In this document: positions 7,745 to 48,394 of the stretch, piece after piece
Layout of the letters: each line of letters starts with the position of its first letter
Numbering within the stretch: the stretch's first letter is position 1
NCBI GenBank assembly: GCA_009602725.1
Contig: WELB01000024.1
Location: forward strand, 408,891 to 461,002
Source: Spirogloea muscicola
Taxonomy: Eukaryota; Streptophyta; Zygnematophyceae; Spirogloeales; Spirogloeaceae
Length of the DNA stretch: 52,112 nt
Direction of reading: 5' to 3'
The notes under the pieces: model-generated
Database searches by the model: none
Seen by the model: the letters and a program-made list of their open reading frames with translations, nothing else
Told to the model about the DNA's origin: nothing
Position numbers and translations under genes: made by a program

Positions 7745-7920
7745 CCTTCTCCAGGAGCCCAGCATCTCTGATCTGCGGCTGCTTAGTTACTGAGTGTCTC
7801 GTAGCTGCTTTGTTTCTGTTACTTAGCGCTTCCCCTGGCCCCCTTCTCGTACTCTGTTCATTCTTTTTCGGGCTGGTTGTTCCAGCCCCTATTCTCAATG
7901 GGCGAGCACTTTCTTCTTCT
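7745..7920 (+). mobile_element. Retrotransposon relic, family D: last codons and 3' tail with hairpin
   Basis: The stretch around 7757-7793 reads as the family D C-terminus (SISDLRLLSY, then stop). It is followed by the tail seen again at 42.86-43.0 kb (GCGCTTCCCCTGGCCCCCTT) and the hairpin GGGCTGGTTGTTCCAGCCC at 7870-7888, ending ...CTCAATGGGCGAGCAC. A severely 5'-truncated copy between the carrier and SF3B1 genes. Confidence 0.75.
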
Positions 7921-7929
7921 CTGAGTGCT

Positions 7930-8445
7930 AAGTGCTAGTGAGGCGCTTCTCAAGTCAAGGGCAAGACCCTATGCAGAGCGGCGGGCACAGGCTGCGCAGG
8001 GAGATATGTCCTTGCGCGCATTAAGCCAGGCCACTGGCTTGCAGAAAGGAGCTCCGGAGTTCCAGGTAAGGCAGGTATGTATGTGCTCACTTGTGTGGAT
8101 ATTTAGAGATCCCCTTATGTCGGTTAATTATGTAAGCCCCTGTTGGATTTTTCTATGTTCTTCTCACGCAGTGTACTGGCTAGCTTTAGCGTCCCTCTCA
8201 ATTCATGCGCACCGCGCGCCTAATATCTCTGTACTTCGGACTTCGTCCATTTTTCGGGTTGGCCTTCCTTGCCCCCTTTGGAAGAGCTTACTCAGGTAGA
8301 CGTACCTCCTTCCACAGAGGAGGTGAGCTCTTCCAGCACCTCTTTCTTTGGCTTTGGACAATGTCCATTCTGTTTGAGCTGGCTTTGCCAGCCCTTCTTC
8401 TCTATGGGCGAGCACTTCTTGTCTTCCGGAGAGGGCGGCGGCTGA
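7930..8445 (+). mobile_element. Retrotransposon relics, family A C-terminus plus 3' UTR and second hairpin tail
   Basis: RALSQATGLQKGAPEFQ (about 8013-8063) matches the family A C-terminus at 41.2 kb, then frameshifts before the terminal MYVLT... codons. The family A 3' UTR follows (GTACTGGCTAGC...CATGCGCACCGCGCGCC, 8172-8220). Another tail carries the hairpin half-sites GAGCTGG/CCAGCCC near 8376-8394. At least two truncated copies lie head to tail. Confidence 0.7.
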
Positions 8446-9274
8446 GAAGGGCCAGCCCAAAGGAAAGCAACAGCTCTTTACTAGAAGGCAGGAATCGACA
8501 AGTCTGCAAGGAAGCCCCAACAGGAGAGACGAACCCGTCAGTAAAGCGAAAGCAATCTTAAAAAAAAGAAAAGCGAGAGCCCGGTACAGAAAGATTTCGT
8601 GTATAAGGTACAGAGAGCCGCCCACAAGCGTTGGGCGAGTACGTCCAGCGGACTGGTTGTTCCAAGCACACCAAGTCATCTGTGATTTATCTGAACTAGT
8701 TGCAGTCATTGAGTCACCGTAACAAGCTCAGAGGCGACAGCCAAGCGAGCGAGATTACATTTTTGTCGTCCTCCACAAAGGCCATAACATACATGGTTTC
8801 CTACCTCTTCACCTGTTGACTTATATCCTGATGGAGCCCTCAACATCTTGATAATCATCTTCTTAGCGCATAGAGTAGCACCGCTTGCCAAAAACCCCAC
8901 CCAATACTGCAAATGGCGATGGCGGGAACAAAGCTGTGTGCTTGCTGACAATTTTGTCTGCAGGCTCTGTAAGTTTGGTCCTTGATACCAGACATCTCAT
9001 GCTTGTAGTAATGCTCTTGACTGGCTTGACTGAAAATATTACACCAGTGTGCATGTGTTACTCCCGTTTGCAACGCCTGGTCGTCTTGCTTCTCAAGCAG
9101 CGGCACGGGTACTTTGGAAGGTCCGAAATACGGTATGCTAACGGGGGATACTCCCATTCGGATCTCCCTACAAAGGCGGCTACACCGGGAAGGTCTGGTG
9201 AAGTGAGAAGCTCTTCACTCAAGAGTGAGCTAGTGCTCAATTAACAGATGGACAGCATATCTGCTGTGACAATA
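8446..9274. other. Spacer downstream of SF3B1, no gene recognised
   Basis: Begins with inverted pieces of the same 3' tail (GGCCAGCCCAAAGG near 8450-8463). The rest, up to the SF3B1 stop, shows no exon I can support and should include the SF3B1 3' UTR. Confidence 0.4.
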
Positions 9275-12200
9275 CTAGATGTACATATGGAGCTCTGGTC
9301 GGCTGTAAGTGTTGCTCCCCTCATCCTCCAGGACTGGGTAGGCAGCAACAAGGCCATCCTGCGATCCTATGTAAAGCGAGTTGTAAATCTTCCAGTATAC
9401 CTCCCGCACCTTCCTCGCCGGGTGGAAAAGTCCCTGTCATTGAGTTTACAGACCGTGGAGCCTAGGTCAGTTGTGCAGCTCCAAGCAGTTTAGTCAGGGT
9501 GTACATGCCATCCAGATTGACTTTACGAAGTCTCAGGGAGGCACCTAGCACAGGACTTGGATTGAGAGCTTACCTGGAGACAGTATGAAAGTATGACTGC
9601 GGGGCCAAGGGCTACTCGCATCCCCTCAATGGCTTCCATCACAGCATTGATGACATGGGGCGAAGTCTCGAAGATGTTTGGCCAGACAAAATTGAGCAGA
9701 TGGACCTGCGCACCATTAACTCACATGCAGAATGAGGCATCACCCCTCAAGTAGAAGGAATATAAGTGGGATGCATCACATTGGCTTCACTTGATTTGGA
9801 CACTTGAGGTGCCTTGTTTACAAATGTGGTAACACAGAAGCTTCAGCTCCTCAGACTGCTCACCAATGCATCTTCGCAGCCAAGTCCAGCCACGCCCAGC
9901 GCCATGTGCTTCACAGCGGAAGCTGCAGTCTGAGGCACATAAGTGTCACACCAAGCTGTGTCAGTACTCCACTTTCCCATTCACTAGACTGCACAAATAT
10001 TCTGGCAAAATCTCATACAGCAGAGCTTACACAAGAAGCACATTCAGTCCTCAAAATTGGCTACTACTTTGCTGGTCAGGCTGACCACAAAAGCAGCAGT
10101 AATAAGAAGGCTCCCTTCCTTGCACGATATCTAATACAATCCCAGAAAACATGAGCAACGGTATGGAGCCAAGAATACCTGTCTATGCACTAAGTCGCGA
10201 TCCATCAGGGCGTCTTCAAGAAGTGGAGTCACTGCATAAATGTAGTCCTTGCCCATTTCACCAATGTACTCAAAGAGGAAGGATAAGGACTTGAGAACAC
10301 CATTCTGTACATTAAGCTCAGGTACCCGGTATCTGACGCACAAGCACATACCAAAGTTAGAAGTTGGCTGAGGTATATACCATTTTAGCATCCCCTCTTT
10401 TGCTGACAGAAGATCTCAGCTTGCGAAAGGAATAAGCCCTGGCGTAACAATGCCCTCAAGCAGAACAGAGGGTGGCACCAGCAACATTGAGCTACGTAAT
10501 AGCTAAAGCATGACAGGAATACATATGACAAACACAGTCTCAAAAAGAGTAAGTACTTCTACAATAACAAGGACAAGCTACATACTCATTCATCAAAGCT
10601 GGCAGCACAGTGAAAGGTGAACAAGTTTCAGCCACAATAGCAATAGCCACCGTTGTGCAGACCCTGTTTTGCCTCTCCTGGACCTTCAGATTGTTCAGCA
10701 GCGTGGCAAGTACATCTTGAGGGCCAATAGCCTTGGCAATGTAGCCAAATGTATTCACTGTAGCTCGTCTGATGCCTTTCTTGTGGGCCTGTTACACGCA
10801 GATAGACATTGCTCAATTGCAGATTACCACTGCTTGCGCAGAGAAACAGAGAGTCTATATCGTAAGGCTAGCAGTCAACATAAGAAGGGTAATGAAGGAG
10901 CACCACGATACACAGACTGCTTGCGGTCAACCTGAGCGAGAAGGTGAAGCAAGCCAATTTGAGACTTGAGCCACTCACCTTCAACATCTCAAGAAGCTCA
11001 AAGCAAATGCGCATCCACTCACGAGCTGGTACAAACTCAGCACCTCTGTCAGCTATCCGCCCAACGAGATCAATGCAATTTTCTTGGACCTTCTCGTGCC
11101 TGTTCTTAAGGATTGGCGTAAGCCTGGGCAGAAGATCCTTGATAGGAGGTGTCATCTTCGTCATTCCAATAACATTCACAATGGCTTTCAGAGCCCCTAG
11201 GATGGACCCAAGCACCTCAGGATACTCTGGAGGACAATCCAATACCACCAAATACTTGTTAGCTCTCTGCGATTGATGCTTTTGGAGTCCTGCCCATCCA
11301 CCCTACAGCTCAAACCCTGCCCTCCCACCACCGCACATTCTTGAATGAGCAGTAAGAAGCTCGTCTAAGCTTAGCCGATGAGCCGATAAGCCTGAATCGC
11401 TTAGCAATGTGATGAAACCTGATAAGCACATGGAAGACTCACCTTCACCAAGGTACTCATAGAGCACAACACCCAGATGGCCCATCAGCTGCTCCTCATG
11501 GCATGCTTTCATTACTACAGCGATTCTAGCAATCAGGTCAGCAGCCTGTTGCCTGACTTTGGCACTTTTGTTATTCAGCCTCCACTTGATGGTTCCACAA
11601 ATCTGAGGTAGATATGGTTTTACCCTTTGGCCTAGGGCATTCACAACTGTACCAAATCCATTGAGCATGACATTTGCATCATCACTAGTCTGTGACAGCA
11701 TACAGCACACAGTAGAGAGTTAGTCTCTCACCAACCTCTACACCAACCTCTACACAATGATGCATGTTCAATCTCAAAAACCTCCAACAAGTATACAAGC
11801 AACTGCAAGAAGAGGCAACAACAGGCAATAATGTATGAGCAAGTGAAGCTGACCTGCTCTTGGAATGCATACAGGATGCCATCAATGAGGAGCTCCTCCA
11901 GGCGGGCATCGATATCTGAAGCACCCAGATTTGTCACAACCTTTTCAACTGTCTCCATGACCATCCGCCTGTACGGTTCGCTCTCATCTTTTAAGTCCTC
12001 CACCACTCGTCCTACAATGTCTGACACACCAACCTGCAAAACACTAGCAGACAACAATGGCTTACTCAGCAATGCAGACCGCAAAAGGTGCAGAAAGATT
12101 AACAAGCCCCCATACAAGCTACTTTCGCAGCCCTTCATATGCCCCAGATAGACACATGTGATACACAGGCCTAACAAACAGGTCTGCCAGATGATTGGTG

Positions 12201-15200
12201 TACTCAAAGTGCATGCGAGCTTGCTTCACCAATAGTTTACAGCTGCAACACCAGCAAATCGTTAAAATAAGTACTCATTCTTGCCTTGTTTGCAACTTCC
12301 ACAGTGGTCTCAACAAGCTGGCGATAGTTGCGCCTGTCCAGGGCCATCCTTCGCACCCAGAAGTTCCGGAAGAACTCTGGTAGGATCTCTTTTCTGATGT
12401 ACTCAGCCTCCACGCCATCAGTAGCCACACACTGTTTCACCACCTTAAGAACAATCTTCTTCATCTCTTCATCTGGGGACTGGAATTCACGGATGAGGAC
12501 AACCATCACCTACAATCAAGGAAACACCACATCATCGTCATATTTGAGAAGGCAGATGGCACATAGTCGGCAACAAGTTGATCTGAGATGCCAATGCGGC
12601 TTGCAAGTCAGACCTCAGTTGACAACACCGTTACATTGCATCAGATACCAGCCTTCACATACAGCTTACAGTGAAATTGCTAGACAAAATATGTTGTTCA
12701 CCTCTTTCGTGTAGTAGCTAGCATAATTAGCATCCATAAGAGGAATGATGAAACCAATGGCCTTCAGGAAAGCTGCGAGCACTTTTCCTCTGTGGGCCCT
12801 TATACCCTTCCAGAGAGGCTTCAGCACCGAGTCAAAGCTTTCAATACCATAAGGAGCTGCTGCCTCTGCCAAAGCTGCCAGTGACAGCGCCGTAATTGTC
12901 CTGACCTGTAAGTACCCACATGTACCCACATAAGCTGTCAACTCTCCAGCAATATATGAGAAGTGCAAGCCCACAGGCAACTCCTTCCACACTTTAGCAT
13001 AAGTAACAAGTGGCTTCACAATTCTTCATCATAAAGAAGGTAGCATAGAAGTCACACCTTCTGATTTTCATCATTAAGGCCATGCTCGATAATTTCCACG
13101 AGTGACTTAAGGTGGGGCAGCACAGCCACCCCCATTAAAATGGCAATCTGTTGAACGATCTTGATACCAGTGTGTCGCGCCTGCCACGACTTTTTGCTCT
13201 GGCACACAGCTTTCAGGAATGGAAGCAGTGCTGGAATGCCCAAAGCTGATGCCACCACAGAGAAAGCCCTGGCTGTTGTGTTCCTAACATACTCGTCAAT
13301 ATTGTCAATATCCGGCCTCATGGCAGCAATCATAGTAGCCAGCCCAGCAGCCTGTTGTCAACACATGGAGATGGAGAAGAGAAGAACTCACTTAGAGCAG
13401 TGCTGACAAATGCCAGAACACGACACAGCTTGTAAACGAACTTATCTTTCGTGCCCTCAAGATGGAAGCAGAACCAAGCAGGATGTATGTATAATATAGC
13501 ATGCATATATCAAGCTTGTATCTTGAGCAAACCTTGCTCAGATTGGAGATGATCTCTCGGCCCTCTACACGGGCGTAGTAGTCCTCATCAATGAGCAAAG
13601 GCTCAATGACCACCAAAATCTTGTGAACAAATGGACGTACCAGCTCATCTAGCTTGTACAGGATCCTGTCAATGACCTGTAAGACAATGGCCGATGCAGA
13701 CATTTCGCTGAGTCTGTGAGCAACACAAAGCAAAGCAAGAGTATGTAGCAAAATCTAGTACAATAAGTACATGCAACTCATGGGCTAGATCCAAGTACCG
13801 ACCTTGACTAGAAGATGACGCTCTTGATCTTCTAAGGTTGGAGACATGAGCAATGGCAAGATCTGATTGAAGAGTGCCCCCGCACCAAGCTCTCGAGCCT
13901 TGTCAGTCAACTGCCTGAGAGCAGTCTTCCTTTGTGGCGGTGTTCCATTCTTCACCTGCAAGCGTGTATCAAAAGAGTATCGAATTAGTCGGTGTCAGCT
14001 GCCATTGCTACGGCAGCAACCCGAATGTCGATAGTCCTGCTGTCCTGCAAGCTTGTAAGATGTGCAAAGTCTCTAATTGTGCACAGACGACAAATAAGGA
14101 TATGAACCTTGAGTAGGAGCTTCATAATTTTCCGCTCCTTGCTCTCTTCAGGGGTGAGCTCCTCTTCTTCTTTCTCATTAAGCAGAGCTCCAAAGTACTG
14201 GTAGTCCTCAGGTTTCATGAAAGGCAGTCCAGTAGCAGCAGCCTCTGATGGTACGTCAAACTTCTGCGTACGGTCTTCTTCAGGAATCTGATACAAAGGA
14301 GTAGCCCCTGCAATGGGTGTGGGAGTTGCCAGCAGCTTGCGCGCTGGGGTTCGGATGGGCACATAAGAGGCAGGAGGGTCGAGGATCTTGTAACCCTCTG
14401 CCGGAAACATAGCGTCCAAGTCCTCGTCTGACAAAGGTCTGTTGCGCTCCTCAATGTCCTTCTCCCACCTCATCATGTTATACTGCTCAGGGGTCATTGG
14501 CGTACGTAATGTGATGTGGCCTGGAGTAGGAGTAGCCATGTCTATACCACCAAGTGGCGTCACACCAGGCGTCATACCAAAAGTGCCACCAGGTGTTGCT
14601 GCCACCATGGGAGTAGCTCCTCCCATACTTGCTGGGGTTTCGTCCCACCTAGACCGCTGCCTCTTTGGTGTAGGCGTGGCCATGCCTGCAAGCTTGGGAG
14701 TTGCATCCCAAGTCATGCCAGCTGGAGTTGCCCCTGCACCTGGTGTTGCATCCCCGTCTGCAAGCTGCACCATGAAAGTGGTGAATTCATGTCATGCCCT
14801 CATTGATGACAAGCAACAGCTGATTACCCAACCATGGTCAGGTCAGACACGATCATAGAGGAGCAACTTTGAGGTGCTGCGACCATGGGAGTGGTCACTG
14901 CAACTTCCAGCTTATGGCCGTCACGTTGCAGGTCACAGAACATGTACTTACTCTGCCTGGAGTTGGGGTCTCGTCCCAGCGATTCCTCCTTGCTCCAGGT
15001 GTAGGAGTGGCATCAACAGACGGTCTTGAGGGAGTTGCAGCATCCCACCGACTTCATCACATGGAACAAAACAGGGGCAGACCAAGAGTCAAGTCAAGTC
15101 AAGCCAAGTACAAGTACATGACTTATGCAGATGTCACATCCATGTCATAAAGTTCATTGGCAATATACCTGGGCCCAGGAGTAGCAGAGGCATCGTCCCA

Positions 15201-16694
15201 CTCAGATGCCGACTTTGCTTTCCTGCAAGCCAGGAAATTACTGACAATTTAGCAGGAGTGCAAATAGCAGAGGCAAAAGAGGCTGCTGCTTTCAAATTAT
15301 GGCCTCTACTGACAACCTTCTAACTTGGCCCATGTTACTGTCATATTGACCAGCTCAACCAGCTATAGACATACATTCTGAGCAAGTATGTCAAAAATGA
15401 AAAGATTGACCATGGCATTACATACTTGGCCTCCTCTCCACCAGGTTGGTCCCATCGATTCCTCCGCTTGCCAGAAGCAGCTGCCGCCACAGGACCGGCA
15501 GCAGCTTCTTGTGCTTTTGTTGGTGCTTCAGACAGCTCTTTCTCTTTTCTCTCTGCTTCCTCCTGCTTTTTCTTGGCGATGAGCTTCAACGTTTCCTCCT
15601 TTTCCCGCTTCAGCGCCTCTTCCTTCATGATATCAGCATAGGTCCTGACTGATGCATCTGGGGTTTGATCTCCCTGCGACCTCAAAGACACATATTAGTA
15701 GCTGTAAATACTGCGGAACAATGTCTATGAAGACATGTTTCGTATGCATAACAACACACAACGAAATCAATGGCAGCCCAGTAATAGCACAAGAAAAAAA
15801 GACAAGTATTACCATGGCGAAAGCATCATTCCTCTCAGGGGAGATGATGCGATTGAGGCGCCGCTTGCGATAGTCGTCTTCTCTATCAATGATTCGCCCC
15901 GGCCTTTTCAGGCCGAGCTGCTCAACGAGAAGGGAATCTAAGTCAACATACAAGCGCCTGCAATTCCTTCTCAAAACAGAAACCTCAAGTGCTAAACACA
16001 GATGAAGGAATGATGACTTGTGACCCCTCACAAACCTGAGCTCATGACCGTGCCAGTACCACTAGACAGACATGGTTAGAGCTGCAGCCCAAGCACAACA
16101 AGAGTAGTCCCCACTAGTTGGAGAATGCTTGCAGCGCATGATACAGGTCATGGGCATCATCGCTCACATCCTCATCTGTTGCTTCTCCTCGTGGAAGGTC
16201 GTTCAGCACAGACTTGGGAGCAGTGTATGAAGCCAACTTTCTGCAGAGCATCCCCAATCAGATGCCGTCACATACGACGCAACACAACCCTCGCAACAGT
16301 CAGGCACAGCTTGTAACTCAAGCATGCTGTCCGACATGTCATACATGCAACCATGCAATGCCAGGGCCTCAGACAACCTGCAAGACGTTCAACTCCATAA
16401 CCATCTGTACTGATCAATTAATATGATCAGGCGAAGCAAGGCCCCTAATCAGACGAGGACATCGACCTGGGACGCCATAGGAGGCAAGGCTCACCTAGCC
16501 ACCTCCCTCTCCGTGACATCCTGTTCCTCCTCGTCCTCAGTCGCGGCGATGGACGTCTCGAAGCCCTCGAAACGGCTGGCAGCGCCGCCACCGTAGAGGT
16601 CCTTGTCGAAGCTGACCTTGATCAGCGCCGCAAGCTCGGCCTCCTTCTGCCGCCGCTCCTCCTGCACCCGCGCGATGTCGTCATCGATCTCCAT
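9275..16694 (-). CDS. SF3B1: Splicing factor 3B subunit 1 (SF3b155)
   Basis: Core U2 snRNP protein that clamps the branch-site helix during spliceosome assembly. The ATG at 16694 starts [20 protein letters not shown] and the stop is at 9275-9277 (ending RPELHMYI). The N-terminal third (13.98-16.7 kb) is disordered, with many TP dipeptides and RWD(E/Q) motifs ([15 protein letters not shown]) that in this family bind U2AF-type UHM domains and are CDK phosphorylation sites. From about 13.95 kb to the end are the HEAT repeats, nearly colinear with human SF3B1: [92 protein letters not shown]. Positions equivalent to the human hot spots R625, K666 and K700 are unchanged. Many small introns interrupt the gene; I did not fix every junction. 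Confidence 0.96.
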
Positions 16695-16724
16695 TGGCGC
16701 CTAGCGCTGCCGCTGTCACCGGCT

Positions 16725-16758
<34 letters not shown>

Positions 16759-17300
16759 AGTCCGCGCAGCCGCGACGAGGGGGCCGCGGGCAGCGGGCGC
16801 GAGCGCAGGCGGCGGCGTGGCCTCGGCGCGCTGGCGGAGCGAAACCCTAACTCCGCGCTCCACGTAGCGAGTTTGCAAACCCCCGCGGGCCCCCTTGACG
16901 CCGCCTCCTGGACCCTTCCCCCAGGCCCGCAAATATCAGCAGATGCGCGTAGCAAAGGAAGCATGTTAGTCTTGGGCCCAGCGGTTTCTTGGGCGGAACC
17001 ATGCAAGCGGCTGGCCACGTCAAGTCTGATAATGGGCTGATTGCGGCCCCCCACCGGAAGCTTCGGGCAATCGAGCCCATTTGTTTGGGCAATCTAAAGC
17101 CCGCGCTGGCGGGCCTTCAGCTGGTCGCCAGTTTGGTGGACCAATGCGGGGGTGGGCCGGGTCACCCATCTCTACCCGCGGGTCAACGGCGCATCCGGCC
17201 TGCCCGTATCAGAGCCCGGAAACAGATCTGCCGCCACAACCACAACGCCGCCAGCATTCCCCGGCATCGGCGGCGGCGGCGGCGGCGGCATCGGCACCGG

Positions 17301-17331
<31 letters not shown>

Positions 17332-21794: not shown

Positions 21795-22070
21795 CCCACG
21801 TCCTCGCCTTGCATCTGCGTGCTGGCCGTGCTCTCGCTGCGGCCTCCAGCTTTCGTCAGGGGGATACTTTTCCGACAGCTAGTCTGTCGGATTTGAGGCT
21901 CCTCACTCACTAACTACTGAGTGGTCCATCCTCCCCCCATTCTGAGACAGCATCTTCAGGCCCCTTCGTAGCTGCTTAGCGCTGTAGGCCCCTCCGTCAT
22001 CTGGCCCCTTCGAACCTTCGTCAACTCTTCTTCGGGCTGGCTTTTCGCAGCCCATGCCCCGGGAGAGCCA
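21795..22070 (+). mobile_element. Retrotransposon relic: C-terminus and hairpin tail
   Basis: LALHLRAGRALAAASSFRQG and then SLSDLRLLTH-stop match the end of the RT/endonuclease ORF, like family C/D. The tail CTTCAGGCCCCTTCGTAGCTG is found again at 41.47 kb, and the hairpin GGGCTGGCTTTTCGCAGCCC sits at 22034-22053. Confidence 0.75.
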
Positions 22071-22361
22071 CTTCTTCTTTCATACTGCCTTGAATCTGAT
22101 ACCATGCCTGTCCATTCAGCTAAACCTTGGAGGGGCTGTGTGCGTATTAATAATCGGAGTCTTGAGGTCTGCTCTCCCTCCCAAGACATGGGCTTAGCAA
22201 GCAGCTGCTAAACAGTTTGGGTCAGTATAGATGTTGATTTGCATGGAGGGGTGCAGGATTGAATAATATATGGATGAGCCCAGTCAAGCAACGTCGCTGT
22301 GGCAGCAGCATGCCCTGCCTGTCTAAGTCGATCTGCCGCAGTTGAAGACTGATGGCGAGCT

Positions 22362-24028: not shown

Positions 24029-24095
24029 TCCTTTGGGCTGGCCTCTCACAGCCACCAGTCAATCTGGCCGCGCTTTCTTCTTGCCTGTGAGCCTG
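24029..24095 (+). mobile_element. Retrotransposon 3' tail with hairpin
   Basis: GGGCTGGCCTCTCACAGCC (24034-24053), followed by ACCAGTCAATCTGGCCGCGC, the family C-type tail also found at 43.77, 44.09, 30.83 and (inverted) 27.3 and 40.6 kb. Confidence 0.75.
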
Positions 24096-27849: not shown

Positions 27850-28140
27850 AGCGCACAGCGACTCAAGTGGCCACGAGGCTCTCAGCGCGGGCTGGCCGTG
27901 CTATGGCTGCTGCTTCCGGGTCTCGGCAAAGTGCCGCTTCTCCTGCTCCGAGTTACTCTGATCTGCTGTTGCTCACACGTGGATACTGAGCAGCCATCTG
28001 CATCTCCCTCTGCACCATCTTGCACTTTGTAGTGTAGTCCTTTTTCAGCACCTCTTTCTTTGGCTTTGAACATTGTCCATTCTTTTTGGGTTGGCTTTGC
28101 CAGCCCCTCTTCTCAATGGGCGAGCACCTTCTCTTCTCAG
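27850..28140 (+). mobile_element. Retrotransposon relic: last codons, 3' tail and hairpin
   Basis: RLSARAGRAMAAASGSRQSA then SYSDLLLLTRGY-stop at 27989. The 3' tail ends in the hairpin GGGTTGGCTTTGCCAGCCC (28088-28106) and CTCAATGGGCGAGCACC. Confidence 0.8.
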
Positions 28141-30790: not shown

Positions 30791-31110
30791 TACTCCGGGT
30801 CCTTCAGACCTTGTGCATCCCTTTGGGCTGGCCTCTCCCAGCCACCAGTCACTGTAAGCGCGCGTTCTCTTTGCACTTTCTGCATTTTCTGCCTGAACAA
30901 TGTCTTGGCTTGAATTGGCCTAGCTTTAATCTCATGCGCACCGCGCGCCTTCTCTCTCTCTCTTTTTAGTCCGTGAAGAGAAGTGGCTGTCCCAGAGGGG
31001 GCAAGGGCGTGTATGAAGCCAGCCCGGAAAGAGTCGTAAGTCGAAAGGGCCAAGCTACGTACCGCCAGCGGGGGAAAGGCGCGCGGGGCGCATGGGACGA
31101 GTTGGAGGCC
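30791..31110. mobile_element. Retrotransposon 3' tails, family C (+) then family A
   Basis: CTTTGGGCTGGCCTCTCCCA GCC hairpin at 30822-30843 with CCAGTCACTGTAAGCGCG. Then the family A 3' UTR in plus orientation (CATGCGCACCGCGCGCCTTC, 30932-30951) and an inverted copy of the same UTR (GGCGCGCGGGGCGCATGGGA, about 31077-31096). Confidence 0.7.
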
Positions 31111-38855: not shown

Positions 38856-39035
38856 CCCGCCCAGGCGTGGGCGGTTTTACAGCCCCCTCTGCTAATATTT
38901 TTGATATCAGCAGCCGCATTCCTTTCCAATCTTAGCGCTTTCCCTGGCCCCTTTCTCGTACTTTGTTCATTCGTTTTTGGGCTGGCTTTTCTAGCCCCTA
39001 TCCTCAATGGGCGAGCACTTTCTTCTTTCCAATCA
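38856..39035 (+). mobile_element. Two retrotransposon 3' tails
   Basis: GTTTTACAGCCCCCTCTGCTAA and TTTTTGATATCAGCAGCCGC (38.87-38.92 kb) match the tail of the intact element (48.35-48.39 kb). They are followed by a family D tail with the hairpin GGGCTGGCTTTTCTAGCCCC (38979-38998). Confidence 0.75.
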
Positions 39036-39480
39036 TATTCCTCGCCAGGCCCGCCCGTGCCACAACCCCCCGGGAGGTGTGGTGGCACGGGAGAAGCATT
39101 ACAAGTCGTTGGCCGAGACCCGGCCTGGGATTTCGGACGGGTGAAGGCCGAGAGCAACCTTGCCTGCAGCCTGCCTGCCGCAGTCGCCGCCGCAGCTTGC
39201 TGCGGGCCTGCTGCGGAGGGTCCGTGGCGCTTTCCCTCGGGGACAGCTTGCCGGCTTGTGCCCAAGAGGTGGATTCGCGGCCTGCAGCGGCGCCACAGGG
39301 CCAGTCTTACGCTACACAGATGTGCGCGTGCTTCGCGGTGTAGATGGTTGGCTCCCAAACCCCTACAGCTGAACCCAACATGGACAAGAACCCAACAAGG
39401 GCAACTCACCTGATTGCGTGTAGGGGCAGGTTGTTACAGGCCAAGTAAGATACATCGGTTGCCAGGGGTGAACAATGGCA
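39036..39480. other. Unassigned GC-rich segment with a short perfect hairpin
   Basis: Contains CCCGTGCCAC (39054-39063) and its complement GTGGCACGGG (39082-39091). Plus-strand frames through 39.1-39.37 kb (LRGVDGWLPNPYS end) are not recognisable. Confidence 0.45.
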
Positions 39481-39540
39481 TATTGCAGTGATTAGCACAC
39501 TCACCTGTAGAGTGTCGAATGAGGTGTTTATGCAGTGTAA

Positions 39541-40115
39541 CGATGTTCGCATGTCCAGAATAGTCAGTGCCGCAGGGAAAGCTTGACAGATGCCTGGAAA
39601 CTAGACACCTCATCCGGCTGACAATAAATTGACTGTCAGTGCCGCAGGAAACTGGTGCTGGCGCTGGTACGGCGACGGGAGGCAGCAGCTGTGCAGACTA
39701 CCTTGACGGCATCGCTAGCGGTCGTTGATGTTGACGTGGACCACGCGGACAACTACCGCCACACCGACGATGTCAATGCCCCGTCAACAGCTACTGATAG
39801 TCTTCTGTCCACATCAACATTGACGACCGCTTATGACGCCGTCAAGGTAGTCTACACCGCTGCCGCCTCCTATCGCCGTACCAGCGCCAGCACCAGGCTG
39901 TCTCACGCGGCACGACTCCGGTTGGCGCCGCTCTCAGCTCGAGGAAGAGATTAATTCCCTCAGTCGTCAGCCTGGTGAAGAATCCCGTCTCCAGGCATAT
40001 GTCAAGCCTCTCCTGCGGCACTGACAGCCTAGTCATTGTCAGCCAAATGAGGTGTCTAGTCTCCAGGTACTTCGTGCGGCACTGACATTCCAGTGATGGA
40101 TATATCGTTACATCC
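39541..40115. repeat. Large imperfect palindrome (hairpin-forming locus)
   Basis: The left arm 39651-39740 is the near-perfect reverse complement of 39797-39897: CTGGTGCTGGCGCTGGTACG against CGTACCAGCGCCAGCACCAG, and GTCGTTGATGTTGACGTGGA against its complement at 39808-39827. Further out, left 39566-39626 (GCTTGACAGATGCCTGGAAA..., GTGCCGCAGG) pairs with two tandem right-hand copies at about 39966-40025 and 40038-40090. The loop is about 56 bases. It could be a foldback/MITE element or the template of a long hairpin RNA. Confidence 0.85.
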
Positions 40116-40600
40116 AGGGTGGATAGAGAAGCAGCGTGGCTTGATTAGACACCACATACACCAAGCAAAGTCACACTTCAATCCAACGTGTTGTTTTTCC
40201 ATCTAATTATGGGCTCAGGAGACTGCTGATCTGCCCAAGCTAGATTGTCCAGTTCGACGCACGGTCTGTCGCCAGGTAGACCCTGCTGATTTGATGGCGG
40301 CAGATGTGCAGCAGATGTAGAACAACATTCTAATGAGCAGCTTTGGAGGCTACTTTTAACAGTACCAAAGAATATCTGGGCTTGCAGGTGGACACTCACC
40401 TTGCCCAACCTCTTTCTCACGGCCCCTCCCAGATCAGATCCTCCTCTCTTTCAGGTAGTCTTCACGCTTCAGCCTGTCTGTGCGGGCAAGTCATCCGGCC
40501 CTGTTCAGGCAAGCCTGATTCCAGCTGAAAAAGAGTCACAATGGCGAAAGCAGCAGCAGCCCGAAACAAGAAAGAAAAGAAAGCGCGGCCAGATTGACTG
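40116..40600. other. Spacer, no gene recognised
   Basis: Open frames on either strand (for example minus 40178-40420) carry no motif I can name. Close to 40.58 kb the family C-type inverted tail begins. Confidence 0.35.
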
Positions 40601-40965
40601 ATAGCTGTGAAAGGCCAGCCCAAACAGCAGAGTAGCCTGGGACAGCATCTGCTCGCTGTCTGGGATATGCACGACGCGAGGCTATGCTTCCAGCCCAGAT
40701 GGGTATGCCCGGCAGCCTATCATTTTTGCGACGTCGAGTGTCAGCTTGTCTGCAGCGAGCTCAGGCTCATGCGTTGCATCAGAAAGCTGGTCGAGCCTTG
40801 GCTGGTAATTCAAGAGCTTGTCGATTGCCGTCCGGTATTCGAGCATCAGTTAGCGACCTCTATGTGCTGACTCATGGTTACTGAGCGGGTCAGCTTAGCA
40901 GCAGGTGACGTACATTTGTCAATGTGCTTGCCTTTGTACTTGGCCACACATGGCCTCCCCATCTC
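40585..40965 (+). mobile_element. Retrotransposon relic, family B C-terminus with 3' UTR; inverted family C tail at its left
   Basis: LPAQMGMPGSLSFLRRRVSA CLQRAQAHALHQKAGRALAG...SDLYVLTHGY-stop at 40884, followed by the family B 3' UTR (GTGCTTGCCTTTGTACTTGG). To its left, GCGCGGCCAGATTGACTG and GTGAAAGGCCAGCCC are an inverted family C tail. Confidence 0.8.
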
Positions 40966-41330
40966 TTAATACACACGTTTTCGCTCGCTGCAGGGAAAGA
41001 AAGAGCTCGCCCAAAGAGAGAAGGCGCGCGGGGCGCATGAATTGAAAGGGAGGCCAATTCAAGCCAATACATTGTTCAGGCAGAGTCGAGTGCAGACTAA
41101 ACAATGCTACATAATACGGAGACCTAATCTAAGGTACCTAAGATGACATTAGTACCCACGGGTGAGCACAAACAAATCTGACAAGCTAACTTGGGGAGCT
41201 GGAGCGCCGCCACGAAAGCCGGAGGCCTGACTTAGAGCGCGCCCTGCACGTTGATGAAGAGCCAATGCTTGCGAGCGCTGCAAACTAAGCGAGAGCCGCA
41301 TTCTATAATGCCCAAAGGGATGGACAAAGT
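40966..41330 (-). mobile_element. Retrotransposon relic, family A C-terminus and 3' UTR
   Basis: Minus strand YRMRLSLSLQRSQALALHQR AGRALSQASGFRGGAPAPQ VSLSDLFVLTRGY-stop at 41149. The 3' UTR (40.98-41.12 kb) contains the inverse of CATGCGCCCCGCGCGCCTTC. This is the cleanest family A end in the window. Confidence 0.85.
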
Positions 41331-41464
41331 CTGAAGGAGACGGATGGTGCAGAAGGCAAGGTACAAAGCGGAAGTGCGGCCTGCAAGGAGTTTTTGGGCT
41401 GGCATTTTCTAGGGCGTTAGGAGTCTGTGACCGGCTTGCCTCGGTAAGTCTCCGCTGATTTCCT

Positions 41465-41840
41465 CGTAGCATCTTCAGGCCCCTTCGTAGCTGCTTAGCG
41501 GTTTAGGCCCCTCGGTCAACCTTGTTTTCCCCCAGTCATTTGCGAACTTCGAACCTTTCACTTCTTTTCGGGCTGGCTTTTTACAGTCCTTGCCCGTCGA
41601 TGTCGACGTACACGGCGCCTTTGGCACCAAATGGCTTGACCTGCTTCACCACCTTGCGCAGCGAGCAGCGGCCCGTCGCCACGGGCAGCAGGGCGAGCAG
41701 CCTGGCTTCAATGTCGCCGGGTCCCTCGCTCAAGTCTTCCGGATGCGCTTGGCCATCTCTTTGCAGCGGTCCCTTGCCTTCGCGGTTCACTTGCGCGCAG
41801 GCCGCGCTTTGGCACACAATGAAACAAAGCAGCTACGAAT
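41465..41840 (+). mobile_element. Tail fragment followed by family C C-terminus
   Basis: CTTCAGGCCCCTTCGTAGCTG and a degenerate hairpin (GGGCTGGCTTTTTACAGTCC, 41570-41589). Then a family C frame: DVDVHGAFGTKWLDLLHHLA, GEQPGFNVAGSLAQVFRMRL AISLQRSLAFAVHLRAGRAL, cut at about 41815. Confidence 0.8.
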
Positions 41841-41843
41841 CAC

Positions 41844-42340
41844 TCAGTAACCCCTGCTAAGCAGCCGCAGATCAGAGACGCTAGGCTCCTGGAAGTGGTT
41901 CCTCTGGCCAGAGCCAGAGACAGCAGCGAGGGCTCTGCCAGCACGAAGGTGCAGCGCGCGGGCCATAGACCTCTGCAGCGAGACGGCCAGGCGCATACGA
42001 TACACTTGTGCCAGCGACCCGGCTGCAGGAAAGTCTACCGGCTCCCCATGGTAGCGACGAGCGATGGTGTGGCGGGCGAGCTGGGTGAGCAGCTCGAGCC
42101 ACCGAGCGCCCAGCGCCCCATGGGTGTCATTTGCCAACGGGATGATTTCGTCTTCCCGCGGATGGTCGGCGTACTTGAGCTCTTTAGCCCGAGCGGCGTA
42201 GGCGACCGCATACCCAACTTGGTGGCACATAGGGCTGGGTGTAAACGGTCGTATTCGTCGGTGGTCACCACGTCCAGGAGAAGACGTGGCCCGCCGGCCT
42301 CTGGGGTGGCCACCAGGTCTACGCGACGGGCGTGGAGACC
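41844..42340 (-). mobile_element. Retrotransposon relic, family D: endonuclease edge to C-terminus
   Basis: Minus strand: GGPRLLLDVVTTDEYDRL in one frame, then in the next GYAVAYAARAKELKYADHPR, LANDTHGALGARWLELLTQL, FPAAGSLAQVYRMRLAVSLQ RSMARALHLRAGRALAAV and SDLRLLSRGY-stop at 41844. One frameshift separates the endonuclease catalytic region from the C-terminus. Confidence 0.85.
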
Positions 42341-43010
42341 GTCGGCCCATGTTCATTCTTTATTGGGGCTGGCTTTTCCAGCCTCTATCCTCAATGGGCG
42401 AGCACTATCTTCTTTTGGCGGCGGCCTCCGGCTTCCATCAGGGCGATTTCTGCGAGCTGTTCGGGGCGCTGGGCGCTGGGCGCTCGATGCCTCGAGCTGC
42501 TCACCCAGCTCGCCCGCCACACCATCGCCCGTCGCTTCCATCGGGAGCCGGTAGACTTTCCTGCAGCCGGGTCGCTGGCGCAAGTGTATCGTATGCGCCT
42601 GGCCGTCTCGCTGCAGAGGTCTATGGCCCACGCGCTGCACCTCCGTGCTGGCAGAAAGTGCTCGCCCATTGAGAATAAGGGCTGGAAAAGCCAGCCCAAA
42701 AAAGAATCAACAAAGGACGAGACGGGGGCCAGGGGAAGCGCTTAGAAAAACAAGCACACAAAGAAACAAAGCAGAGCCCTCGCTGCTGCCTCTGGCTTTG
42801 GCCAGGGGACCCACTTCCAGCGTCTCTGATCTGCGGCTGCTTAGCAGGGGTTACTGAGTAATTCGCAGCTGCTTTGTTTCGTTGTGTGCTTGTTTTCCTT
42901 AGCGCTTCCCCTGGCCCCCTTCTCCTGTTCTGTTCATTCTTTTGTGGGCTGGCTTTTCCAGCCCCTATCCTCAATGGGCAAGCACTATCTTCTCCTTGCT
43001 GATGTCTTAG
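42341..43010 (+). mobile_element. Family D tails and C-termini, nested
   Basis: In order: a plus tail with hairpin GGGGCTGGCTTTTCCAGCC (42365-42383); a family D piece LGARCLELLTQLARHTIARR...RMRLAVSLQRSMAHALHLRA; an inverted tail whose hairpin GGGCTGGAAAAGCCAGCCC (42677-42696) cuts into it; the final codons SVSDLRLLSRGY-stop (42857); and a complete tail with hairpin GGGCTGGCTTTTCCAGCCCC (42945-42964). The inverted tail interrupts one family D copy. Confidence 0.8.
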
Positions 43011-43860
43011 CACTCCGGCTCCTTCAGCCGGAGCCAACCTTTTAGGTTGGCTTTGCCAGCCCCTCTTCTCTAGCGGGCACTTTCTTCAGACACTTGTACA
43101 TTGCTTTGTGCTGCGGAATGCCATGTTTGGCATCTGTCGAGGTTATACGGTGGCGCTCGAGAACACCAGTGTCATGCCTCCGACCGGTGGGGCGGATGGC
43201 CGCATCCACACCCCGACCTCGTCGCAGCGCGCTCGGCCGGGGCCTCGGCTCATCGCCGACGTTGTCACGACTGACTGCTTTGTTTCCAGCAGCGCCAAAC
43301 GCTCGTCGGAGGAGGCGGGCTACGCAATCGGCCAAGCAGCGGGCGAAAAGGAACGAAAGTACTCGGACCACCCGGTGGGAGACGAGTTTGTTTCACTGGC
43401 AGTCGACGTGCACGGAGCCTTTGGCTCGAAATGGCTTGACTTGCTTCACCGCCTTGCGCGGCGTGCAGCGGCCCGCCCCCTCGGGCAGCAGCAGGGCGAG
43501 CAGCCCGGCTTCAACGTCGCCGGGTCCCTCGCTCAAGTCTTCCGAATGCGTTTTGGCCATCTCGATGCAGCGGTCCCCGGCCTTCGCGGTTCACTTGCGC
43601 GCAGGCCGAGCTTTGGCGGCGGCCTTCGGCTTCCGTCAGGGCGACGTCTTTCCGCCGGCTAGCTACTCATACTTGCATCTCCTGACTAGAGATTACTGAG
43701 CGTTCCCTGGCTGATGTCTTAGTCCTAGTCCTTCGCACTCCGGCTCCTTCAGACCTTGTCCATTCCTTTGGGCTGGCCTTTCCCAGCCACCAGTCAATCT
43801 GGCCGCGCTTTCTTTTGTGCTGGCCTCTTCCAGCCACCAGTATATTTGGACGCGCTTTTT
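43011..43860 (+). mobile_element. Retrotransposon relic, family C: endonuclease domain to 3' tail
   Basis: The longest relic: RNAMF...GYTVALENTSVMPPT, RPGPRLIADVVTTD, GYAIGQAAGEKERKYSDHPV, DVHGAFGSKWLDLLHRLARR and AGSLAQVFRMR; after a frameshift, FAVHLRAGRALAAAFGFRQG DVFPPASYSYLHLLTRDY-stop (43699). The hairpin GGGCTGGCCTTTCCCAGCC is at 43770-43788, followed by the CCAGTCAATCTGGCCGCGC tail. Confidence 0.85.
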
Positions 43861-44170
43861 CATTGCCCCCATTGGGAGAGCCACTTTTTCCTCGCAGCGA
43901 TGTCGCCATCACACGCTTCCCTCTTCTTCCCCCTAGGTTGCCCTAGACTCTGCCTGAACAATGTGTCGGCTTGAAGTGGCCTCCATTTCATTTCATGCGC
44001 CCCTCGCGCCTTCTTTCTTCCGGACCTTTGCGATAAGGGGGCGAACCCCCTTGTGTGTTGTAGCGCTTTCTTGTCCATTCCTTTGGGCTGGCCTTTCTTC
44101 TTTCCCAGCCACCAGTCAATCTGGCCGCGCTTTCTTTCTGGCCACTTCGGACCTTGTCCATCCTGTCGGA
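43861..44170 (+). mobile_element. Retrotransposon 3' UTR pieces, families A and C
   Basis: Family A-like 3' UTR (CAATGTGTCGGCTTGAAGTG, CATGCGCCCCTCGCGCCTTC, 43958-44013), then the CTTTGGGCTGGCC...CCCAGCCACCAGTCAATC tail (44081-44120) with an expanded hairpin loop. Confidence 0.7.
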
Positions 44171-44279
44171 CTGCCTTTCCCAATCGAAGAAAAGTAAAGA
44201 AGGAACGAAACAGCTCTCCCAATGTAACTTTTATGGAAGAGCCTGCTTCCTAGCGAAGGGCTGCCGGTGGCATATCTCG

Positions 44280-44730
44280 GCTTCCCCTGCCGCTCCCGCA
44301 GTGCCGCCGGCCTGCCGCCGACTTGACCCCGCCGCCGCCGCCGCCGCCATGATGCCCGGCGGCGCCGGCGAGGTCCACGCCTACGCGGCGGCCGCCTGGG
44401 CGCGCCGCCGCTGCACGGCGCCTATGGCTCCCACCTCTACAACCTGCCGCAGCCCCCGAGCCCCTTACGGCGGCGCCGCCGGCCCGGCTGCATGGTACCA
44501 CCAACCGCCGCATCTATACGCCCCGCAGCCTCCGCAGCCGTCGTCGCCCGCCCCGTCGAACCACGGCGGGTACGAGAGCCCCGGGGCAGTCATCTACGAG
44601 GCCTTCCCGCAGCGGCCGTACGCCGGCGGCGGCAGCGACGAGGCTCCCGGAGCTGCCGGCAGATGTCTACCGACGGCGGATCGAAGCGCTTCCGCGTGAA
44701 GCTCCTCGCTGACGGCCTAAAGCCCAAGGA
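44280..44730 (+). pseudogene. 5' fragment of an unidentified gene, frame-broken
   Basis: A (GCC)n leader and ATGATGCCC at 44349 resemble a host gene start. The coding signal changes frame: LHGAYGSHLYNLPQPPSP in one, AAWYHQPPHLYAPQPPQPSS...GGYESPGAVIYEAFPQR in another, and GGSKRFRVKLLADGLKPKDV in a third, ending near a possible donor at 44730. The Pro/Tyr/His-rich composition resembles the N-terminus of a nuclear regulator, but no family is recognised. An inverted retrotransposon tail begins at 44.95 kb and no downstream exons are seen. Either a truncated pseudogene or a real exon with sequencing indels. Confidence 0.4.
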
Positions 44731-44949
44731 CGTTACGTGCCAGGCGAGCCCCACCGGCTCCCCACAATCCTCGCTGCCGCGCCAATTAGGGCGGGCGGCG
44801 GGCGGCGATTGGCAGTACAGGCGGCGGCGGGCGGGGTGGCCGCAGCAGGCTCGGCTCATCAGCGGCGGCCGGCCGATGATGGGGGAAGGCATGGCGGGCC
44901 CCGCACGGCTCCCGGGCTCCGCTGACGCCCGGCACCGTTGCCGGCAGTA

Positions 44950-45020
44950 GAATAAAGAAGAAAGTGCTCGCCCATTGAGGATAGGGGCTGGAAAAGCCAG
45001 CCCGAAAAGAATGAAGACTG
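44950..45020 (-). mobile_element. Inverted retrotransposon 3' tail with hairpin
   Basis: GTGCTCGCCCATTGAGGATA then GGGGCTGGAAAAGCCAGCCC (44983-45002) is the exact inverse of the family D tail. It ends at GAATAAAGAAGAAAG next to the gene fragment. Confidence 0.8.
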
Positions 45021-45094
45021 TTGCCGGCAGTGGGGCCCGCGCCAGGGCGGCACCAAAAGGGACCGGCCGGCGGCATCAGAACCCCGCACGCTGA

Positions 45095-45480
45095 CAAGCG
45101 CCTCCCCACCTCTCTCTTCTTCTCCTCCGCCATCGCTCCTGCCACTGCTGCTGCCCTACCCCCTTAGCGGCTCCAGGAGTACATGACGGACAGGTCGTAC
45201 ATGCCCACATCAACGTTTCCGGCCCTCCTTCCCCCCTCCACCATTCCTCCTGCCACTGCTGGTGCCGTTCTCGAGCGGCTCCAGAAGTGGATGAAGGACA
45301 GGTCGTATCGTCTTTTCCGGCCCTTCTCCCCCCCCTCCGCCATCCCTCCACTCCTCCTCCACTGCTGCTGCCTCACTCCTCTGGCAGCCGGCCCTCCTCC
45401 CCCCCCCCGCCATCCCTCCTCCTGCTAGTGCTGCCAGGCCAGGTCGTCAAGGCCCTCATCGGCACTTTCGGCCCTCCTGA
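45095..45480 (+). repeat. Tandem ~107-bp repeats immediately 5' of the intact retrotransposon ORF
   Basis: Units start near 45128, 45236, 45341 and (short) 45402 with CCTCCGCCATCCCTCCTGCC-like sequence. They contain GCGGCTCCAGAAGTGGATGA and AGGTCGTCAAGGCCCTCATC, and end TTTCCGGCCCTCCTTC. The last unit runs into the open frame of the element. Resembles promoter-monomer arrays of other LINEs. Confidence 0.75.
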
Positions 45481-48293
45481 CACGTCTGGCTCGTGACAGC
45501 GAGGATGAGGCTGCATGGGCTGTGTTTGTGTTGTTTCAGCGACTATTGCTTGGTCGCCTGCCGCAGGGGAAGGCAGGTCGCAAGGAGCTGCTGCTGCGCC
45601 TCCACCTCTTTGAAGGTGGGGAGTGGCAGCTGCTGCTTGCAAAGCACCAAGCGGCTGCGCAACTCGCGCAAGCCAACTATCGGCCCACCATGTCGGAAAT
45701 GGATATCAAGGAGGCGGGCAAGCGACGTGCCATCCGATTTGGCCGAGCCGGCGACCTTGCCAGGGCTGCCCAAGCCTTGGAGCCCTCCACACCAGCACCG
45801 CATGATGCGACCACCTTGGCCGCACTCGAGCAGCTCCATCCTCCGGCCCCGCGAAGATTAGATACATGGATGGAGAGCTTCACGCCTGCTCAACCGGTGG
45901 ACCTGGACCCGGCTGTCTTCCGTCGGGCGATTGTGAGTAGCCGCAAGGCAGTCTCCGGGGGTCCATCGGGCATGCTCTTTGAGCACTTGCGGGAGCTGTA
46001 TGGGGAGGACGACTCGGAGGACTTCGACCTGCTGCTGAGGGTCGCGCAACATGTTGCGCGTGGACACCTCACCCATCGTGTAGGCGCAGTCCTCTGCACA
46101 AGCAATCTCATTGCTTTGCAGAAGGACAGCGGGGGAGTGCGTCCTATCTCGATGGGGGAGGTTCTGTCGCGCCTCGTGGGGCGCACCCTAATCATGCAGA
46201 TCCAGGACGATGCCCAGGCGCACTTCCATCCCCACCAGTTTGGGGCTGGAATGCGGGCTGGCGCTGAGACCCTGGTGCACGGGGTACGAGCGGCACTGGA
46301 TGTCAACCCCCACTGGCTGGCCTTGAGCGTGGACGTACAGAACGCCTTCAACTCCGTGGATCGGCAGGTTATTGCCGAGGAGCTAAGGCAGTACTTTCCC
46401 ACCCTCCTCCCTCACTTCCGCTGCATGTATGGCTCGCCATCTGCATTGTTGTGGGGGGCAGGGACTTCTTTGGCTGTTCTGCAGTCAAAGACGGGGACAC
46501 GCCAAGGTGATCCAATGGGTGGTTTCCTCTTCGCTCTGGCGCATCACCGTGCTTTGCGCAACACGGCGAGCGCTCACCCTGGCGTTCTCCTCCCGAGCTA
46601 TGCGGATGATACCACGCTCCTCGGCCCCCCAGAGGAGGTGCTGCGAGCTTTCGGCACACTTCAGCACCAGCTCCAGCTTATCGGGCTTGGGGTCAATCCG
46701 GCTAAGTGCTCTGCCTGGTCCCCCATTGGCATCCCTCTTTCCCTCTTCCCCTCGTTGCCGACATCTTGTCAGACTCCAGAGGACGGCTTGAGGATCTTGG
46801 GAGTGCCACTAGGGGACCCGTCTTTCTCGGAGGGTGCTGTCCTTGCTCGTCTCCAAGGATACATGCAGGTCCTGCCAGAGCTCCCCAGCCTCGGGGACTC
46901 TCAGTTGGCAATGGCCATTTTGACCAGGAGTGTGGCACAGCGGCCGTGCTACCTCCTGCGTACGGTCCCACCGTCGGTCAGCTTGGATGCTATCTATGCA
47001 TCCATTGATGTCAAGCTTCAGCAATGCCTTGCTGATCTGATTGCTCACCCACTCCTAGAGCAGTCTCCAGCAGCACTGGTGCAATGTACGCTGCCCATAC
47101 GCCACGGTGGGCTTGGTTGTCGCCCCTTGGTCCGCTTATGCAGACCAGCGTACCTTGGCTGCTGGGCTCAAGTGGCTTCGTCCATATCTGGACGATTCCT
47201 CCTTGAGCAACAACGTGTATTGGCGCCTCACATCAGTAACGTGGTTCAGGGGAGTCTGCCTTTCCAAGTGACTCTCAAAGCATGCCAACAGGACCTCTTC
47301 GCCGCATACCCGCCTCTGGTGAATGAGCCTGTTGGTTTTGCTGCCTGGGCCGACGTTTCTGATGTTAAGGCTCAATCGCGGTTTTCCCGTGCTGCAGACG
47401 AGCAACCACTGGAGCATCTCCGGAGTCTCCTCCAAGGGGATGCTCGAGGCCAGGCTCGGCTCCTATCTGTTTCGTCTCTGGGAGCGTCTGAGTGGCTCCG
47501 CGCTTTGCCTTTGCATGCGGGCTTGCGGATGGAGAATGCTTTGTTTTGCGATGCTATGCGCCGCCGCCTTGGCTTACCATCCCTGTGCTTGGCAGGGGTG
47601 ACCCAGTGTGAATGTGGGCGTATCGAGCATGATGCATTGCTCATGGGTGACCACATGCTCAGGTGTGCCAGAGGCAGTGAGCGCACGGGCTCCCACAACC
47701 TCCTACGTGACGCCATGTATGGCATCGTCAAGGAGGCGGGATATCAAGTGGCGTTGGAGAGCACCGGGGTGATGCCCGTCCAGCTCCGCAATGGGGTCCC
47801 TCGGACGAGGCGTGTCGATCTGGTTGGCGTCCCCCTGGGAGGTGGCAAGCGGCTCCTCATGGACGTCGTCCTAACCGACAGCTTCCGGACGAAGGGCCCC
47901 ATTACTTCTGAGACCGGCTATGCTGTGAAGGTGGCCGAACAGAAGAAGTTGAACAAGTACAAGGACCACCCGGCGGGTGATACCTTTTACCCCCTGGCCA
48001 TGGACATCCACGGGTGTTACGGGGGTCAGTGGTCCTCGTTACTTTCGCTGCTGGCCTCTCAAGCTGACCAGCGGCGCCGGGAACGGGGTGCAGCCCTTCC
48101 CGGTGGCTCGGTGCCTTTGGGTCTTGTGTCCTGCTACCGTATGCGCTTGTCTATGTCCCTACAGCGGTCCCAGGCGATTGCTTTGCATCGCCGGGCTGGT
48201 CGCGCCCTTGCAGCAGCCTCTGGTTTGCGCAGCGGGGTTGCTCTTCCTCCCCTCAGCTCATCTGACTTCCTACTGCTGACTCGGGGGTATTGA
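45429..48293 (+). mobile_element. Intact non-LTR retrotransposon ORF: reverse transcriptase plus restriction-like endonuclease
   Basis: Open frame with no stop for about 954 codons from 45429; no ATG near its start, so the N-terminus is missing or spliced elsewhere. Numbered from GTG 45522: RT motifs LIALQKDSGGVRPISMGE (196-213), LSVDVQNAFNSVDR (268-281, catalytic Asp), GTRQGDPMGGFLFALA (325-340), LPSYADDTTLLG (357-368, catalytic YADD) and GLGVNPAKCSAW (388-399). A zinc knuckle CECG...DHMLRC (696-715) leads into SHNLLRDAMYGIVKEAGY (724-741), RRVDLV (763-768), LLMDVVLTD (778-786) and KKLNKY (808-813). This order matches the R2/CRE-like endonuclease of early-branching LINEs, with D-x14-D and the distal K..KY. 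After it comes a C-terminal domain (YRMRLSMSLQRSQAIALHRR) ending LLLTRGY. Confidence 0.92.
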
Positions 48294-48394
48294 GGGCGCC
48301 CTGTCTGCCTAGCCTTTGGCTCCGTCATGAACACCTGTATGCATCTGGCTGGCAGTTTACAGCCGATTTTTTCATATCAGCAGCCGCTTGTGTT
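48294..48394 (+). other. 3' UTR of the intact element with variant hairpin
   Basis: GGCTGGCAGTTTACAGCC at 48347-48364 sits 54 bases after the stop and is followed by TTTTTTCATATCAGCAGCCG, also present at 38.9 kb. It is the counterpart of the hairpin in the truncated families. Confidence 0.65.

Follow-up and report, generated by a model that had tools for sequence, protein, structure and literature searches.

The stretch of DNA analysed here (the window) comprises 52,112 nucleotides (nt) of the genome of Spirogloea muscicola, positions 408891-461002 of contig WELB01000024.1. It contains copies of several families of retrotransposons that encode a reverse transcriptase (RT) and a restriction-like endonuclease (RLE). 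The tails of these elements carry a short hairpin, which probably belongs to a terminal RNA module read by the RT. Comparisons beyond the window refer to the host genome (153.1 Mb in 471 contigs), and the features of the window are collected in Table 1.

Family Z and the shared hairpin

The family Z open reading frame (ORF) matches RVT_1 (E=2e-18) and encodes an RT of the type found in retrotransposons without long terminal repeats (non-LTR). Its seven sequence matches in PDB comprise two R2 and four LINE-1 proteins and one entry named just RNA-directed DNA polymerase. For a model of the C-terminal part (mean predicted local distance difference test, pLDDT, 51; 61-83 over most of residues 121-260, dipping to 43-49), R2 proteins were the best fold matches. 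The region is predicted to form a zinc knuckle and a PD-(D/E)XK-like endonuclease; residues C97, C99, H112, C116, D167, D182, K210 and Y214 are invariant across the three aligned families, and we take them to belong to these motifs. A Pfam scan of the endonuclease region gave no match, and an AlphaFold model of the whole 923-amino-acid ORF made without an alignment (mean pLDDT 37) was unusable.

At least 55 genome matches to family Z were listed, a lower bound with 49 of 15,563 first-look candidates scored. Among those listed, 14 others span the whole ORF at 95-99% identity and without stops. The initial annotation had called the ORF in front of position 48347 intact: an open frame of 954 amino acids is indeed present, but the copy is probably 5'-shortened, since 13 of the 14 have open frames of 1,199-1,488 amino acids (1,115 in the fourteenth). 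GC-rich minisatellite-like units flank the element at 45100-45480 (by eye) and 48380-48885 (111-bp period at 48644-48885), and it seems to have been inserted into such an array.

Table 1. Hairpins and retrotransposon features of the window (positions numbered from its first nucleotide; UTR, untranslated region)
Feature	Position	Strand	Remarks
Family D hairpin, exact 7 bp, loop TTGTT	7870..7888	+	element end ~7914
T-type hairpin GGGCTGG-CTTTTC-GCAGCCC	22034..22053	+	
A-type hairpin GGGCTGG-CCTCTC-ACAGCCA	24035..24054	+	
Family E hairpin GGGTTGG-CTTTG-CCAGCCC (U-G pair)	28088..28106	+	RT C-terminus ends 27989; element end ~28131
A-type hairpin GGGCTGG-CCTCTC-CCAGCCA	30825..30844	+	
D hairpin, one G-U pair	38979..38997	+	
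Family X 3' tail, hairpin GGCCA-CACA-TGGCC	40923..40975	+	
Family Y 3' end, hairpin sequence UGAAUUGG/UCAAUUCA + GCGC-CCC-GCGC	41010..41148	-	RT C-terminus FVLTRGY-stop ends 41149
D hairpin, copy of ~60 nt left	42366..42384	+	
Hairpin of D tail within D-type RLE ORF	42679..42697	-	empty-site homologue 41890-41970
Family D hairpin, exact 7 bp	42946..42964	+	D RT C-terminus RLLSRGY-stop ends 42857; element end ~42990
Family A ORF, C-terminal RLE part, one frame break, ending HLLTRDY-stop	43108..43699	+	tblastn vs Z: 39% and 60% identity, two pieces
Family A hairpin GGGCTGG-CCTTTC-CCAGCCA	43770..43789	+	element end ~43813 (GCGCTTTCT); core 71 nt past stop
D hairpin, exact 7 bp, 5'-truncated copy	44985..45003	-	
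Family Z RT + RLE ORF, ending ...LLLTRGY-stop	45522..48293	+	923 amino acids from GTG, inside 954-amino-acid open frame
Family Z 3' UTR, ending ...ATATCAGCAGCCGC	48294..48387	+	13/13 copies aligned by eye from stop
Family Z hairpin GGCTG-GCAGTTTA-CAGCC	48347..48364	+	53 nt past stop

It had been proposed that diverged retrotransposon families of this region share a 3' hairpin with a 7-bp stem, GGGCTGG-loop-CCAGCCC. All 12 coordinates named for it carry a hairpin of this type, with starts off by 0-2 bases. The 7-bp stem is perfect at four of them (7870, 42679 minus, 42946 and 44985 minus) and was too strong a description of the remainder, in which an outer or inner pair is lost or a G-U pair is used (GGGTTGG at 28088, CTAGCCC at 38979); at 48347 the stem is reduced to GGCTG/CAGCC alone. 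The 5-bp core GGCTG/CAGCC, with G-U pairs allowed, is the constant feature across the tails. Measured from the core, the loop is 7-8 nt long and mostly pyrimidine. As described, both arms persist while the loops (CTTTT, TTGTT, TTATT, CCTTTC, CTTTG) and flanks vary, and the flank CTCAATGGGCGAGCAC of family D tails was found as reported. The 20-mer AATGGGCGAGCACTTTCTTC occurs 1,808 times in the genome (900/908 by strand).

The exact pattern GGGCTGG-N4..8-CCAGCCC is present 9,156 times genome-wide, against 0 for the reversed pattern, and the core GGCTG-N5..9-CAGCC 36,194 times, against 510. In 20 order-1 Markov shuffles of the window the exact hairpin did not occur. The core with a 5-9 nt loop was found 13 times in the window (12 pyrimidine-rich) and 57 times in 200 kb of contig C1 (50 pyrimidine-rich), with 1 and 0 occurrences in the respective reversed sequences. 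Because ten order-2 shuffles of the C1 200 kb contained 4-9 cores each, base composition accounts for a minor share of the 57 observed. R1, a covariance model built for the tail, matched 23 tails in the window and 104 in the window plus the C1 200 kb (E<=0.01); having been trained on 46 tails of the same sequence, it is partly circular. Thousands of hairpin tails are spread through the genome.

The sharing among diverged RT families was likewise confirmed: beside Z, the RT families A, D, E and probably T have the same core in other flanks. In aligned pieces of the RLE region their identity to Z is 37-48% (A), 46-63% (D), 35-62% (E) and 54% (T). Counted from the stop codon, the core lies at +71 and +119 in family A (HLLTRDY-stop) and at +77 to +89 in five of six family D elements (RLLSRGY-stop). 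In family E it stands behind the RT C-termini at 27989 and L026:1876 (by eye); family T (RLLTRNY-stop) is tied to the T tail via the 3' UTR only (by eye), hence "probably".

3' ends and tail-only insertions

Mapping of 3' junctions against the hairpin, a check suggested with the initial annotation, revealed a fixed 3' end about 20-30 nt beyond it. In all 13 family Z copies read, the hairpin starts exactly 53 nt past the stop codon and the flanks differ beyond CAGCAGCCGC. In families A and D the element end was set at ...CTTTCT by five empty-site comparisons. These belong to tail-only copies, 27 to ~120 nt long, which are true insertions; the five matched to empty sites have duplications of 3-10 bp. 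The shortest is an A tail (27 nt; duplication TCAG), and a D tail measures ~31 nt (TCCGGC, with TTCGGC in the empty homologue). Another D tail is cut at the hairpin base ((T)TCGCCCTGC, with 5 extra bases), and a third is ~120 nt long ((C)TGC). The fifth copy is an A tail with GTTCTG. Poly(A) was absent from the ends of all tails inspected by eye. The elements thus combine a fixed 3' end, 5' truncation and target-site duplication, and the RT ORFs upstream, empty sites and duplications rule out that the hairpin is part of a satellite unrelated to element ends. In the two shortest verified tails the hairpin is missing its 5' arm and is therefore not needed in the DNA product; this would agree with a role at the RNA level, without proving one.

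The suggestion that the hairpin could explain the many 5' truncations was not borne out for the hairpin by itself, as copies stop before, inside and after it. When 54 D copies were sorted by retained length with a script, 2 retained <=29 nt, 8 ended in the hairpin zone, 11 at 48-66 and 8 at 67-99 nt, and the remaining 25 retained >=100 nt or reached the edge of the fetched stretch. At least three loci (L068, L085 and L013:1588) were mis-assigned in this count via a second upstream tail, and L085 was counted twice; no sharp 5' stop at the hairpin can be claimed from these copies.

Some tails are mosaic or tandem: L079 has an E hairpin with a D 3' end, and at L068, L083, L085 and L013 D fragments lie directly behind E, A or D tails. 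Such tail-to-tail chimeras may have arisen by jumping between RNAs, and they could equally be explained by independent insertions. Antisense neighbouring tails are nearly as frequent as same-strand ones. For the R2 RT, template jumping is documented in vitro, and the authors suggest that it is perhaps unneeded for proliferation (PMC8857657). At 41800-42700 of the window the layout is inverted: an antisense D-type RLE ORF (41847-42328, minus strand) is followed by a short sense D tail (~42350-42410) and, farther right, by sense RLE sequence and the antisense D tail at 42679. This looks like nested insertions, or a 5' inversion through twin priming.

Stem constancy, folding and the hairpins of families X and Y

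The five invariant pairs of tail set A2 owe their invariance to its selection by stem pattern, and copies chosen by flank were therefore read. Among 62 such D/E-type tails (list read by eye) the hairpin is kept in 44 and absent, mostly through truncation or nesting, in 18, and no two-sided re-pairing change was seen. With transitions allowed in the stem, 1,583 D tails were found genome-wide, 1,505 of them with a perfect stem; the 75 stems examined comprised 70 perfect, 5 changed and 0 compensated ones. Sub-family E has a U-G pair in the stem. A constant stem with a variable loop fits recognition of the stem sequence, or a joint constraint on sequence and structure. It would also result from a recent common origin.

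In folds of D and E tails the hairpin lies inside a second, outer helix (z -2.6 and -2.7). An Rfam scan of the window found nothing at gathering score; the 13 weak matches at 41000-49000 were all far under the family cut-offs.

Families X and Y have a hairpin of another sequence at a similar place (Table 1). The Y 3' end at 41010..41148 is without GGCTG/CAGCC; the fold UGAAUUGG/UCAAUUCA was computed on another Y copy, L066 (z -2.65). Among 19 X copies picked by upstream sequence alone, 16 have 4/4 pairs at the expected place, compared with 275 of 2,000 shuffled strings, although one of the 16 (L010) looks like chance pairing from an inserted antisense tail. In one of the 19, on C1, both arms are changed (GACC/GGTC). 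Having a hairpin ~20-30 nt before the 3' end may be a general trait of the clade, with GGCTG/CAGCC as one sequence solution; the resemblance is suggestive and does not amount to proven homology.

Proposed role and alternative explanations

Taking these observations together, we consider it likely that the hairpin is part of a 3'-terminal RNA module of a diversified R2-like (RT + RLE) non-LTR clade, where it would most likely act as the template recognition site of the RT in target-primed reverse transcription. Directly established from the sequence are where the hairpin lies with respect to stop codon and 3' end, its sharing between RT families, the fixed 3' and variable 5' ends, the empty sites and the duplications. 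The element RNA would end ~20-30 nt beyond the hairpin, which means at ...CUUUCU for families A and D. Its own protein would most likely grip the hairpin on the RNA and bring the RNA 3' end to a nick in the target, whose sequence often begins with TC or TTC and may pair with the RNA end; reverse transcription would start there. Frequent early abortion of synthesis would give the tail-only copies with their short target-site duplications.

R2 elements have a longer, more complex 3' UTR and insert in 28S rDNA; here the module measures ~50-70 nt and the insertions are dispersed, with 3' flanks differing among the 13 Z copies read and the genome matches lying on many contigs (rDNA itself was not searched). 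Common to both, as judged here by fold match, are an RT and, on its C-terminal side, a zinc knuckle and a PD-(D/E)XK-type nuclease. R2 needs 3' sequences for RNA binding and for the start of target-primed reverse transcription (PMC3414825).

Stringent long interspersed nuclear elements (LINEs) of the L2 clade (UnaL2, ZfL2-1 and ZfL2-2) have a 3'-terminal stem-loop, and a conserved stem-loop near the RNA 3' end, judged on DNA, is found here likewise. The recognition role proposed above follows the analogy of these elements. Compensatory stem changes, which would be a further mark of such LINEs, were not found within the GGCTG/CAGCC families. L2-clade stringent LINEs use an apurinic/apyrimidinic-type endonuclease (APE). 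The 3'-terminal stem-loop of ZfL2 is needed for mobility, which is strongly lowered by loop exchange, whereas stem exchange is tolerated, at about half rate in ZfL2-1 (PMC4176376). Specificity in ZfL2 comes from the loop; here the reverse applies, with stem sequence conserved and loop variable. UnaL2 has terminal TGTAA repeats, and the repeats at the ends of RandI families are (ATT)n or (CTATTT)n (PMC3747384); no terminal tandem repeats like those of UnaL2 were seen in the tails read here. In a plant L1 lineage stem bases vary with compensation, and conservation falls on the 3' flank and some of the loop, again the reverse of the present hairpin (PMC3747384). Together with the Chlamydomonas RandI/SINEX pairs, this lineage provides green-lineage examples of shared 3' ends and of a conserved 3' hairpin, as do the elements studied here (PMC3747384). 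The concept of a LINE 3' hairpin is already known, and the form with conserved stem and variable loop is new; in the literature covered by title and abstract opening this hairpin is not described, which, coverage being partial, is weak evidence of absence. If the proposed role is right, a very compact RNA module of ~50 nt guides an R2-like enzyme in target-primed reverse transcription at sites outside rDNA, thousands of natural variants of it exist within one genome, and there is a small, testable answer to what an RLE-type LINE protein reads in the RNA tail.

Several observations weigh against a recognition role. The compensatory changes for which a covariation test had been proposed are missing within the GGCTG/CAGCC families. 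The 5' ends are distributed along the whole tail, with truncations on either side of the hairpin. For Z, A and X, folding the complete UTR did not outperform shuffled sequence (z 0.59, -0.81 and 0.06). The outer helix of D and E was rejected as lacking cross-family support, because in an arm-swap test foreign arms pair as well or better (A/D -13.2, A/A -5.0; the D1, D2 and E rows overlap, D copies having contaminated the E row). Within the clade, families X and Y terminate in different hairpins, and in the C-terminal region Y (~60% identity) is nearer to Z than D or A. The strict core lies within 230 nt of 10 of the 26 RT-like C-termini listed for the window and fetched DNA; one of the ten is an X element holding an inserted D tail, and the 16 without core are X, Y, degenerate or interrupted. 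(An earlier scan, with the strict core <=700 nt after 8 of 21 RT C-terminal anchors, is superseded, since several cores belonged to other insertions; loci L001-L009 were left out of later local scans because they repeat the C1 200 kb.) Finally, the binding of the hairpin by a protein, its role in mobility, and its being the determinant rather than the last 20-30 nt are what we infer.

Recognition might instead reside mainly in those last 20-30 nt, for example through pairing of GGGCGAGCACUUUCU with the nicked target, the hairpin serving as spacer or clamp. The seemingly fixed 3' ends, often met by TC or TTC in the target, and verified insertions down to 27 nt, which hold just the terminal part as DNA, speak for this; we nevertheless regard it as unlikely, as the last 20-30 nt differ strongly among families whose core is constant (both sets having been chosen by core). 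Distinctly unlikely is a signal for RNA 3'-end formation or stability in unpolyadenylated transcripts, comparable to the stem-loop of histone mRNA and conserved for RNA production rather than for RT recognition. Such a signal would account for the absence of poly(A) from the tails read by eye, the conserved stem sequence and its constant position near the 3' end, but no Rfam match reached gathering score in the window, and the insertions end 20-30 nt past the hairpin, whereas histone mRNA is cleaved ~5 nt past the stem-loop.

That the hairpin is a functionless relic, inherited in the 3' UTR from one ancestor by recently expanded families, appears highly doubtful: A, D, E and T are just 35-63% identical to Z (RLE pieces) and their loops and flanks have changed, yet the 5+5 core bases have not, and X and Y retain a similarly placed hairpin of different sequence. 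Identical stems across families, many young copies and the lack of compensatory changes are what such inheritance would predict. A Helitron-type 3' hairpin (which precedes CTRR in elements inserting without target duplication), a miniature inverted-repeat transposable element or a satellite unit can practically be dismissed, as the short palindrome near the 3' end and one tandem tail pair (43763-43858) are outweighed by ends in CTTTCT rather than CTRR, the 3-10 bp duplications in five cases, RT ORFs upstream and near-equal strand counts.

Outside the elements discussed above, a run of 122 T opens the window (1-122), and an exon of the host splicing factor SF3b1 (13985-14773, minus strand; PF08920, 2e-49) adjoins its repeat-rich part.

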